Shown in pieces: positions 31,837 to 35,655 of a DNA stretch of 48,197 nucleotides. The position numbers and the translations under genes were made by a program. Origin of the DNA: Prevotella sp. (GTDB taxonomy: Bacteria > Bacteroidota > Bacteroidia > Bacteroidales > Bacteroidaceae); contig JAILAI010000168.1 in the NCBI GenBank assembly GCA_024681705.1, positions 1-48,197 of the forward strand. Reading direction: 5' to 3'. Below the pieces are notes generated by a model. It was given only the letters and a program-made list of their open reading frames with translations. It did no database searches and was not told the origin of the DNA. Numbering within the stretch: position 1 is the first letter of the stretch; every line of letters starts with the position of its first letter.

Positions 31837-32439
31837 ATGAATAAAAAGATATTATTCCTTCATGGGTTCTTTGCTAGTGGTCAGTGCATTCCGGCATTGG
31901 CTTTGCGCGATGCGTTTGTCGGCAAAGCGCAGGTTCTCACTCCCGATTTGTCAATACATCCATACGAATCCATCGAACTGATACGGAAGATTTGCGAAGA
32001 AGAAAGACCCGATTTGTTGGTGGGTAATAGTTGTGGAGCGTTTTATGCACAGATAATTGCCTCAAAAATCGGTTTACCTGCTTTATTGGGCAATCCTCAT
32101 TTTCAGATGACGGAATTTCTTAAAACGCGTATAGGAACTCATCAGTTTAAATCACCGCGCAAAGATGGGAATCAGCAATTTATTATCGACGATGATCTTA
32201 TAGCTGAGTTTGCGCAAATGGAGAAAGTTCAGTTCGATAATTATCATCCGAAAAACAAAGAACGCATATGGGGGTTGTTTGGAGAGAATGATACTTTGGC
32301 TCACTTTGAACCTCTTTTTTTGAAGTATTATACGGAGTCTTTTCACTTTCCAGGTGGGCATACACCCACTGATGATGAAGTACGAATTTGGTATGTTCCC
32401 TTAGCGGAGAAAATGCTTGAATCAATTAAGTATGAATAA
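31837..32439 (+). CDS. YqiA/YcfP-like alpha/beta-fold esterase
   Basis: MNKKILFLHGFFASGQ, LLVGNSCGAFYAQIIASKIGLPALLGNPH, FPGGHTPTDDEV. Confidence 0.8.
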   Translation: MNKKILFLHGFFASGQCIPALALRDAFVGKAQVLTPDLSIHPYESIELIRKICEEERPDLLVGNSCGAFYAQIIASKIGLPALLGNPHFQMTEFLKTRIGTHQFKSPRKDGNQQFIIDDDLIAEFAQMEKVQFDNYHPKNKERIWGLFGENDTLAHFEPLFLKYYTESFHFPGGHTPTDDEVRIWYVPLAEKMLESIKYE

Positions 32440-33160
32440 AATGAACGATAAACAGATGAAATCAGCCATAGAAGCTCGTCATAGTGTGCGAGCGTATAGA
32501 GAGAAACCATTGACCGAAGATGTTGTCAGCACGTTGGAGGATAAAATCACAGAAGTCAATCGTTTGGGAAATCTGCATATTCAACTCATTCAGAACGAAC
32601 CGAAAGCCTTTCAAGGAAAACTGGCTAAATATGGTAAGTTTCGGGGAGTTACGAATTATCTCGTAATGGCAGGTAGGAAAGCTGACGATCTCGACGAACG
32701 CATCGGCTATTATGGTGAGCAACTTGTGTTGCTTGCTCAGACTCTTGGGCTAAATTCTTGTTGGGTGGGACTTAGCTATTCGAAAGTTCCGGGAACGTAT
32801 GTGCTCGATGAAGGTGAAGTCATAAAGGCCTACATTTCTATAGGATATGGGGAGACTCAGGGCATTTCGCATAAGACAAAGAGCATAGAACAAGTGAGTT
32901 CATCTAGGGCAACCGACGGTCAAACGCCTTTATGGTTTCGACAAGGTGTCGAAGCGGCCTTATTAGCACCTACGGCCGTAAATCAGCAGAAGTTCTTTTT
33001 CGAATACATTCCAGCTAAAGATGGAAAACTTGCTCAGGTTCTTGCTAAACGTAAATTCTCTTTAGTAGGTTTCACCCAGATGGATTTAGGAATCGCCAAG
33101 TGCCACTTTGAAATTGGGGCAGGGATAGAAAACTTCGAGTGGAAACAAGAAGAAAAATGA
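32432..33160 (+). CDS. Nitroreductase family protein
   Basis: AIEARHSVRAYREKPL, YLVMAGRKADD, GLNSCWVGLSYSKVPG, ISIGYGE, LLAPTAVNQQKFFFE. ATGAATAA overlap with the previous gene. Confidence 0.88.
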   Translation: MNKMNDKQMKSAIEARHSVRAYREKPLTEDVVSTLEDKITEVNRLGNLHIQLIQNEPKAFQGKLAKYGKFRGVTNYLVMAGRKADDLDERIGYYGEQLVLLAQTLGLNSCWVGLSYSKVPGTYVLDEGEVIKAYISIGYGETQGISHKTKSIEQVSSSRATDGQTPLWFRQGVEAALLAPTAVNQQKFFFEYIPAKDGKLAQVLAKRKFSLVGFTQMDLGIAKCHFEIGAGIENFEWKQEEK

Positions 33161-33166
33161 GTGGAA

Positions 33167-33493
33167 ATGGAACATCTGACGAACATCAACGATATTGAAC
33201 AGACGATAAAAGACAACCGTTTGTGCCTTTTCTACATTAAAGCACCCGATTGCGGAGTATGTAACGTCATGCTCGATAAGGTGGTGCGAATGACAGATCG
33301 TTATCCTTCACTTAAATCTTTCTTTACAGATATAACGGAAGTTCCCTTAATAGCAGGGAGATTTCTAGTTTATTCGGGTCCAACAGTTCTATTGCTGATG
33401 GAAGAAAAGGAAATCTATCGGGCGTCACAATTCATCAATATTGAGGAACTGGAACGAAAAATCGCCCAATATCTCGAGCTCTTAGGACTTTAG
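33167..33493 (+). CDS. Thioredoxin-like protein
   Basis: CLFYIKAPDCGVCNVMLDKV (CxxC), FFTDITEVPLIAGRFLVYSGPTVLLLMEEKE. Confidence 0.85.
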   Translation: MEHLTNINDIEQTIKDNRLCLFYIKAPDCGVCNVMLDKVVRMTDRYPSLKSFFTDITEVPLIAGRFLVYSGPTVLLLMEEKEIYRASQFINIEELERKIAQYLELLGL

Positions 33494-33514: not shown

Positions 33515-35344
33515 TTAATTCTTCTTACCAGTAATGATATAAGGAATGTTGTTGATTATCAGCATGTCTTTTTGCAATTCACCTGGTAACTCCTCGTAAG
33601 GGGCGATATCTAAATGAATGAATTGTTCATTCTTCAGTTCATTAAAACGAGAACGGTCTTTACGCTCTGAAATCGTAGCAGCTCGATAACCCATAAATAA
33701 CATTGTTGTCATCCATCTCCGATGTTCCAATTCTGAGAGTCTATACAAATCAGCATCTGAGAGGTGCAACTCTTTTTCATTGTTTACGTCAATTTGTAAA
33801 CTTCTGAGTTTCAATACAATTGAGTTCGCGCTTGCAATACTGGAGTATTTATGAGCATAGGGCAGTTTCTCCCACGCTTCCGATTCATCATTTGCAGGAG
33901 GATTACCATATTCTAAATCATAGACACGATTTACTCTCTTGCCCATGGCTGAACGTTGTAGGAATAAAGGATCACCTCCACCAACAGAGTTGCCAAACAA
34001 AAAGATATTGCCATACATGCCTGTCGAAATAGCTGCTTTCATCACTTCGGTATAACCATTTTGGGAAACTGCTACGTTCACATCGTTGTTATATATGATG
34101 TGCGGAAGATGCAAAGCCATATATGCATTGGTCTCGTCATCACCGAAACACATAGCCATTGCTAATGTCTCAGATGGATTGTCAACCCATGATTCAATCA
34201 ATTTAGTTGTGTAAGGCGACATGAGCTGACTATCAATGAATTCCCATTCAATATCCATGAAATCACCATATTCGTTTTTCGGGATGAATTCTTCTGTCTT
34301 CTCTGACGACAAATAACGATAATGGCATAAGTCAAACATATTGCGGTAACAGGCGGTGAAGCTATTCATTTCTTTCACCCCATATCCTATTAGTGAAATC
34401 TTGGTTCTAGTGGTTTTTTCTTTGTTGTAATTGGGGAAATGACACAATTGTGCGGCAACCATGGCGAACGACCGCGAAACATCAGTGTTCCCAACAATGG
34501 CTAAATGTAAACGACGATTTGTGTCGTTAACAGTGAATGCAGGCAAAAAGTTTGTTCCTGTCATTAAGCGCTCGGCAGAATAATCCAATTCATTGATAAC
34601 CTCAACGTTCAGTCTTGAAAGCTTACTCGTTTTGATATAATTGAAAACACTGAGCGTCGTATGCATCTGCATAATAATGTAACAGGGAATTGTTGGACCG
34701 TCTCCTTTGCACACTTCTTTCAGGTGATTCAGACATCTCATGTTGAGAGAGTCATGTCCAATTTCATTGTCTTCACCAATAATATAAATTGCGCTAGCCT
34801 TATCAGCACAAGCATCTGCGAGATAGCTTAAGGTGTGCCTTTCCCGATGAAAATAATTCAGTCTTTTGCAAAATGAAGAATCCGCTAATTCTATCTTCAT
34901 CTGTCTTCTGAGGGTTATGACGTCTATTGCTGTCATCACCAATATGTCTTTTCCTTCAAAATCTTTATTGTCCTTAATTGCTAACAACATATTCTTGAGA
35001 GGTCTCCCTGCACCTATAATCAGGATGTGATCTTTATAAGGATAAACGGACTCTCCATTTCTGTATGAATTCGACATATTGTCGAAAATCTTAACAAAGA
35101 TAGAGATAAGCACTGCGGAGAAAAGTACTCTTCCGATTAAGCCGGCAATCAGCTTAAAGAGCCGATGTTCGCCAGATGCACCTATTCCAAAAAAGCTGGG
35201 AAGGATGTCAAGACACTTTAAACCAACAAAAAGCCAGTTGTAAATTAGTAAAGCAACTATTACAACGGCAATCAGTAAGACGAGCCAAATCAACTGTTTC
35301 CCATGACCTTCTGAAAGTGTCCTGTCTATATTGCGCTTTGACAT
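33515..35344 (-). CDS. Predicted membrane RCK/CASTOR-like plus RyR-domain protein
   Basis: Two N-terminal hydrophobic helices flanking a short loop; Rossmann-like DHILIIGAGRPLKNMLLAI; second nucleotide-binding-like module HLAIVGNTDVSRSFAM; C-terminal LSELEHRRWMTTMLFMGYR...HLDIAPYEELPGELQKDML resembling the RyR repeat (E-H-W...GW...P...L). Confidence 0.6.
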   Translation of the reverse strand: MSKRNIDRTLSEGHGKQLIWLVLLIAVVIVALLIYNWLFVGLKCLDILPSFFGIGASGEHRLFKLIAGLIGRVLFSAVLISIFVKIFDNMSNSYRNGESVYPYKDHILIIGAGRPLKNMLLAIKDNKDFEGKDILVMTAIDVITLRRQMKIELADSSFCKRLNYFHRERHTLSYLADACADKASAIYIIGEDNEIGHDSLNMRCLNHLKEVCKGDGPTIPCYIIMQMHTTLSVFNYIKTSKLSRLNVEVINELDYSAERLMTGTNFLPAFTVNDTNRRLHLAIVGNTDVSRSFAMVAAQLCHFPNYNKEKTTRTKISLIGYGVKEMNSFTACYRNMFDLCHYRYLSSEKTEEFIPKNEYGDFMDIEWEFIDSQLMSPYTTKLIESWVDNPSETLAMAMCFGDDETNAYMALHLPHIIYNNDVNVAVSQNGYTEVMKAAISTGMYGNIFLFGNSVGGGDPLFLQRSAMGKRVNRVYDLEYGNPPANDESEAWEKLPYAHKYSSIASANSIVLKLRSLQIDVNNEKELHLSDADLYRLSELEHRRWMTTMLFMGYRAATISERKDRSRFNELKNEQFIHLDIAPYEELPGELQKDMLIINNIPYIITGKKN

Positions 35345-35563
35345 AATAAAATCATTTATGTTAGTTTACAAAAACAACACGTAAAGCCTGAAGCCACTAA
35401 TATGACTTCATGGCAAAGGTACAAATAAAAAGTGAAAACCAACTTCTTTTTGTCGGATTATTTACATGACGTACATTGAAGATGGCATAATTGTAGTTAT
35501 ATGTACTTTTCTAGTTTCATTCTATCAGAAGTTGAATCATTAGAAGCCTTATGCTTTAGTACG

Positions 35564-35597
35564 AAAAAAGAGGGCCCCCGATTCACATCGGGAACCC
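35564..35597 (-). terminator. Intrinsic terminator of galE
   Basis: Minus strand GGGTTCCCGAT-GTGA-ATCGGGGGCCC-TCTTTTTT. Confidence 0.9.
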
Positions 35598-35655
35598 TTA
35601 ACAACACAAACACAAAACACACAAGTCCTCTGAGGCAGAGAACAAGTGTTTGGGG

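Follow-up and report, generated by a model that had tools for sequence, protein, structure and literature searches.

The gene of interest lies on the minus strand of the window, by which is meant the whole 48,197-nt stretch of Prevotella sp. DNA that was analysed. Its open reading frame (33515-35344, exactly where the original prediction had placed it) is intact, starts with ATG and encodes 609 amino acids. From the ORF, the family profile and an AlphaFold2 model, the gene was judged complete, with the order TM1, pore loop, TM2, RCK1, RCK2 and RyR. The upstream neighbor is galE and the downstream neighbor is a convergent thioredoxin-like gene. A terminator-like hairpin of 12 pairs with a T tail (35571-35598, minus strand) follows galE and separates it from the 609-aa gene. 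Because galE ends in so strong a terminator-like hairpin, the 609-aa gene is probably a transcription unit of its own. A promoter-like TACCTTTG (35414-35421, minus strand) was read directly from the sequence 70 nt 5' of the ATG; it appears to be of the Bacteroidetes -7 type, whose consensus is TAnnTTTG. Both the promoter-like element and the solitary position among housekeeping genes had been predicted, and both were borne out. The G+C content of the gene is 39% versus 46% for the window, and on the strength of the own-unit signals, the flanks and the low G+C the gene looks like a one-gene transcription unit of accessory type.

No TIR, RyR or STAND partner was found among the surrounding genes examined. 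recN and a TPR gene keep their synteny across the genus, but in near relatives they were not accompanied by galE, the 609-aa gene or the genes lying beyond it, and no syntenic counterpart of the 609-aa gene was found there. A clean empty site was sought in the genus, and a precise insertion of the gene was not demonstrable. On the downstream side a nitroreductase-like gene (32417-33160) is followed by the small thioredoxin-like gene (33161-33493), a pairing and position that were not found conserved in the relatives examined.

Family, predicted structure and pore loop

Searched alone, the window protein matched nothing significantly in Pfam, NCBIfam, PADLOC or, by sequence, the PDB. Its modules lie below single-sequence detection, and the domains were thus revealed only by family alignment. 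In the near-relative set (own genome included) 4 of 40 genomes had a homologue, as did 28 of 394 genomes of the order (E-values down to 1e-77) and three named Bacteroidales MAG contigs. The best homologue, L008, is 42% identical to the window protein. The relatives are scattered over Bacteroidales and their distribution is patchy. In an alignment of 31 proteins G285, E540, R543 and W544 were invariant, and with E-values reaching 1e-77 this excludes chance. A plasmid search with the window protein gave no match, and a search of a phage collection gave a single weak match, which was unannotated.

The 31-member profile matched BK (human Slo1, 7e-9), MthK, GsuK, DMI1 and CASTOR over the pore and/or RCK1, and the RyR structures 6uhi (4e-5) and 3nrt (0.0095) at the C-terminus. 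Pfam matches among the members (E <= 0.01) were Slo-like_RCK in 13/31, RyR (PF02026) in 8/31 and TrkA_N in 4/31; the TrkA_N match suggested earlier was therefore present in relatives but not in the window protein, which alone has no Pfam match. Four of the 31 relatives are without a TM segment in the ORFs as called, from which it appears that the RCK-RyR part can serve other outputs. Across the phylum, further TM-Rossmann-RyR proteins were found (L070, L072, L078).

The AlphaFold2 model of the 609 amino acids (pLDDT 88.6, pTM 0.87) placed a pore helix and a loop between TM1 and TM2, followed these with two Rossmann domains and ended in a helical RyR domain. TM1 occupies residues 14-38 by DSSP of the model (35231-35305, minus strand), with a short helix at residues 2-11 before it, and the long TM2 or inner helix occupies residues 61-95 (35060-35164, minus strand). 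Kyte-Doolittle hydropathy peaked at 2.85 and 1.96 over TM1 and TM2, respectively, with no peak >0.98 beyond residue 100, so that the two TM segments expected around a short loop were confirmed. A pore-helix-like segment with its loop (CLDILPSFFGIGASGEH, residues 44-60; 35165-35215, minus strand) was located between them using the model, the alignment and a motif count; in the model it forms a short helix at 44-52 and a loop at 53-60. The RCK1-like Rossmann domain (about residues 107-251; 34592-35026, minus strand) was assigned from the profile against Slo1, MthK, GsuK and CASTOR, from Slo-like_RCK in the 13 relatives and from the model. The RCK2-like Rossmann domain (about residues 278-450; 33995-34513, minus strand) was assigned from the model and from Foldseek matches to the tandem-RCK proteins GsuK and TrkA. 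The two RCK/Rossmann modules of the original prediction were thereby recovered, and no clear GxGxxG could be read in either of them.

Foldseek with the whole protein ranked GsuK structures at the top, ADP- and NAD-bound ones among them (best E 1.4e-7), with MthK, Slo2.2, Slo1, TrkA and LjCASTOR next. A Foldseek comparison with viral models was discarded, its matches being mainly spurious (e.g. glycosyltransferases). By profile, model and Foldseek the window protein has the TM-pore-TM arrangement and RCK gating-domain fold of the Slo/MthK/GsuK channels. The best match, GsuK (the double-RCK K+ channel of Geobacter, 4gx0-4gx5), likewise has two TMs and two RCKs; no RyR domain is known in it, whereas the window protein is without the standard TVGYG or a clear GxGxxG. 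GsuK is activated by ADP and NAD+ (PMC3510474).

In most pore-bearing members the loop carries a filter-like DPGN, usually xDPGN or xDGNA, and 17 pore-bearing relatives have a D-P-G, D-G-N or D-S type motif there. The window loop reads GIGASG (GIGASGEH, without Asp) and departs from this consensus; other variants are GIGG in L048 and L049 and TTGG in L009 and L010. The CASTOR filter is AD(S/A)GNHA and its Asp is essential (PMC6697748); it resembles the DPGN motif of most relatives but not the Asp-less window loop. The K+ filter TVGYG is also absent from the window protein, the sequence at that place being SFFGIGASG. When compared with the K+ and CASTOR filters, as had been proposed, GIGASG agreed with neither sequence; that GIG itself serves as a K+ filter was considered and is conceivable.

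CASTOR, POLLUX, DMI1 and the bacterial Castor_Poll_mid channels have in common with the window protein a pore followed by a tandem RCK gating ring, as judged by profile and Foldseek. The suggested comparison with the plant channels therefore stands as a working likeness (profile matches to CASTOR and DMI1, Foldseek match to LjCASTOR) but not as membership. None of the 31 members matched Castor_Poll_mid (PF06241) at E <= 0.01, whereas the bacterial channels L073 and L074 match it at 2e-29 and have no RyR match. Assignment to the CASTOR/POLLUX family was rejected on the Castor_Poll_mid and filter results, the pore and tandem-RCK plan being the part that agreed.

RyR domain and putative ligand pocket

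The RyR-like helical domain (residues 487-605; 33530-33886, minus strand) was assigned using its own model (pLDDT 92.7), Foldseek, a channel-only profile and PF02026 in relatives. When the domain was folded separately, the top 43 Foldseek matches were all RyR entries, the best being 3nrt of Bacteroides thetaiotaomicron (at E 0.17, but with a probability of 0.99). When the profile was built from channel tails alone, leaving out the stand-alone RyR proteins, it still matched 6uhi at 2.9e-5. The window protein itself had no PF02026 score above the Pfam gathering threshold, so that the predicted RyR module is upheld by fold, by family profile and by PF02026 in eight of the 31 relatives but not by a match of its own. 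The fold of the tail is common to 3nrt, a putative ryanodine receptor, and to Repeat12 of animal RyR; 3nrt is a small stand-alone protein, unlike the window protein. The body and pore of animal RyR differ in architecture from RCK channels. RyR R12 structures among the Foldseek matches hold ATP, ADP or AMP-PCP.

In the phage protein RyDEP, H75, W78, H100 and D117 hold ADPR, H75 and D117 form the catalytic dyad, and the equivalent residues of human RyR3 hold adenine ligands (PMC13232231). Phage RyR domains are reported to bind or cleave 2'/3'cADPR (PMC13232231). Binding was seen for only six of the eight phage RyR homologues tested and is therefore not assumable for all RyR domains, and the other RyDEP homologues tested did not cleave despite high conservation (PMC13232231). 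The window protein has the same four ligand residues, all on the minus strand and equated by motif alignment, not superposition: H541 for H75 (33722-33724; in 97% of 31 members and also in stand-alone RyR proteins), W544 for W78 (33713-33715; invariant in the 31, and in 33 with stand-alone RyR), H577 for H100 (33614-33616; about 94% of members) and D593 for D117 (33566-33568; 97% of members). Stand-alone RyR proteins beside the channels keep the exact RyDEP spacings of 3, 22 and 17 (e.g. L044:9866-10168); relative to these the window protein's W-to-H spacing, up to H577, is longer by 11 residues and its H-to-D spacing, up to D593, is shorter by one. RyDEP is viral and destroys or sponges signals, whereas the window RyR domain is bacterial and fused to a channel-like protein.

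Neighborhoods of the relatives

A TIR gene (TIR_2) was present within 10 kb at 11/31 loci versus 0.45 expected (P about 1e-13), and a further RyR gene at 12/31 loci versus 0.16 expected; such values presume random placement and independent loci, while defence genes cluster in islands, and a few of the loci come from related genomes. On the family tree the TIR state needs 11 changes, which makes the association recurrent rather than inherited once. Most neighboring TIRs have Glu at what is presumably the place of the NADase catalytic residue, and several match ThsB models. The small RyR gene often directly adjoins the channel gene (L041, L044, L047, L051, L052, L061, L062). DUF4062/STAND-type neighbors were found at L008 and L065, and by sequence at L046. 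At L008, the closest relative, an overlapping DUF4062 ORF precedes the channel gene; no homologue of this STAND-type partner was found in the window genome. SLOG-like neighbors at L050, L063 and L064 were named by motif only, the two tested having no Pfam match. An FHA-like/TM/trypsin set occurs at L043, L057 and L058, where the RCK-RyR relative has no TMs in the called ORFs, and the relatives L038 and L040 lie among housekeeping-looking genes. The proposed link to nucleotide signalling and conflict systems is accordingly supported at the level of the family, but the window copy stands alone with no direct partner.

Thoeris was considered for the same loci, as TIR genes, some matching ThsB models, lie near many relatives. 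No ThsB neighbor stands beside the window gene, no ThsA-type effector was shown and PADLOC gave no profile match for the window protein. Membership of the window locus in Thoeris was rejected for want of a neighboring TIR.

Within the window genome, TIR_2 matches were confined to contigs C285 and C209. On C285 (L101:6497-8785) adjacent TIR-Sel1 and Macro-TIR genes form a possible NAD/ADP-ribose signalling pair, which could supply a signal in trans. Contig C24 (L043:2314-4047) carries a second, TM-less relative beside an FHA-like/TM/trypsin-like peptidase gene; this TM-less subtype was seen again in L058 and in L057, where a TIR-FGE gene and a kinase-like gene accompany it.

Interpretation

With moderate confidence, the window protein is taken to be an RCK-type ligand-gated cation channel with a C-terminal RyR (Repeat12-like) sensor, acting as a nucleotide-gated effector or regulator of a conflict system. 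Behind this reading stand the domain order, the predicted fold, the conserved pocket residues and, across the family, the association with TIR and additional RyR genes. Precedents that may apply by analogy are GsuK for gating by NAD+ and ADP on the RCK ring and RyDEP for the binding of TIR signals by RyR. Four subunits would line the two-TM pore and carry a ring of eight RCK domains, as in GsuK, Slo and CASTOR. The ligand would be an ADP-ribose-type nucleotide, for instance a cADPR isomer made by a TIR enzyme or a comparable product of NAD, and its binding at H541/W544/H577/D593 would shift the ring and probably open, rather than close, the pore. Within a TIR/STAND/SLOG-type conflict pathway with a presumed role in defence, the open pore could act as an effector by depolarising or leaking the cell, or could produce an ionic signal. 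The lone window copy may still work in this manner, perhaps through trans signals from TIR genes elsewhere in the genome. Against the reading are the non-consensus loop, the missing partner at the window copy, the 4/31 TM-less relatives, the E of 0.17 for the RyR domain in Foldseek, the W-to-H spacing longer than in stand-alone RyR domains, the two of eight phage homologues that did not bind 2'/3'cADPR and the assumptions behind the co-localisation P.

The foremost alternative, considered unlikely, is a K+ (or Ca2+) channel of housekeeping type that senses nucleotides or ions to keep osmotic or ionic balance; its RyR tail would respond to ordinary adenine nucleotides such as ATP or ADP, and the TIR linkage of relatives would be a later recruitment. 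It would suit a solitary gene with its own promoter-like element among housekeeping genes, the like setting of L038 and L040, the sensing of ADP and NAD+ by GsuK and the adenine nucleotides in RyR R12 structures. A presence as patchy as 28/394 genomes of the order and 4/40 near relatives, the repeated TIR, RyR, STAND and SLOG-like links and the overlapping DUF4062 ORF at L008 speak against it. Tandem RCKs with a long inner helix are hallmarks of a gated channel and would be needless in a membrane-anchored signal sink or hydrolase, whose RyR domain would sequester or cleave cADPR-type signals and so damp TIR immunity, the TMs being an anchor only. This second alternative is improbable, although H541 and D593 correspond to the RyDEP dyad, small stand-alone RyR genes adjoin many channels and the window loop is degenerate; most relatives keep a filter-like motif, and high conservation did not bring cleavage in the other RyDEP homologues. 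More improbable still is that the gene is a degenerate or orphaned component of a conflict system with no present function, as the lone position, low G+C, non-consensus loop and lack of a syntenic counterpart might suggest, but the frame of 609 amino acids is intact, it retains the complete set of four pocket residues as well as the conserved E540, R543 and W544, the promoter-like element is in place, and the GIG loop common to L048 and L049 indicates that the window loop may be a functional variant.

For the nucleotide-gated conflict channel, a wider proposal is offered tentatively: a widespread Bacteroidales signalling class in which TIR-made cyclic ADP-ribose isomers may open a CASTOR-like cation channel via the fused RyR domain. 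If true, this would parallel in bacteria the action of cADPR on ryanodine receptors. Whether cADPR acts directly on the animal receptors has long been disputed. With RyR fused to the gating ring of a bacterial channel-like protein that recurs beside TIR genes, direct nucleotide gating of an ion channel becomes testable in a simple system; the fusion also points to an ion channel as a possible output of bacterial TIR signalling. The conflict- and NAD-system papers examined do not deal with RyR domains; earlier reviews may have noted RyR-channel fusions, and no firm claim is made that the fusion itself is new.

Other genes were seen near the relatives. At L052 (10195-13200) a PPDK_N protein (pyruvate phosphate dikinase ATP-binding) is encoded immediately upstream of the channel gene. 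In two related genomes (L044:5849-7681 and L047:5745-7559) the gene immediately downstream of the channel gene encodes MutS_III and MutS_V domains, as tested in L044. At three loci (L039:9862-11569, L053:8874-10410, L059:1926-3429) an ECF-sigma-like gene, named by sequence and with no Pfam match, is followed near the channel gene by one for an anti-sigma-like protein that ends in a RyR domain, Pfam-confirmed in L039; through such pairs RyR may also feed transcription.
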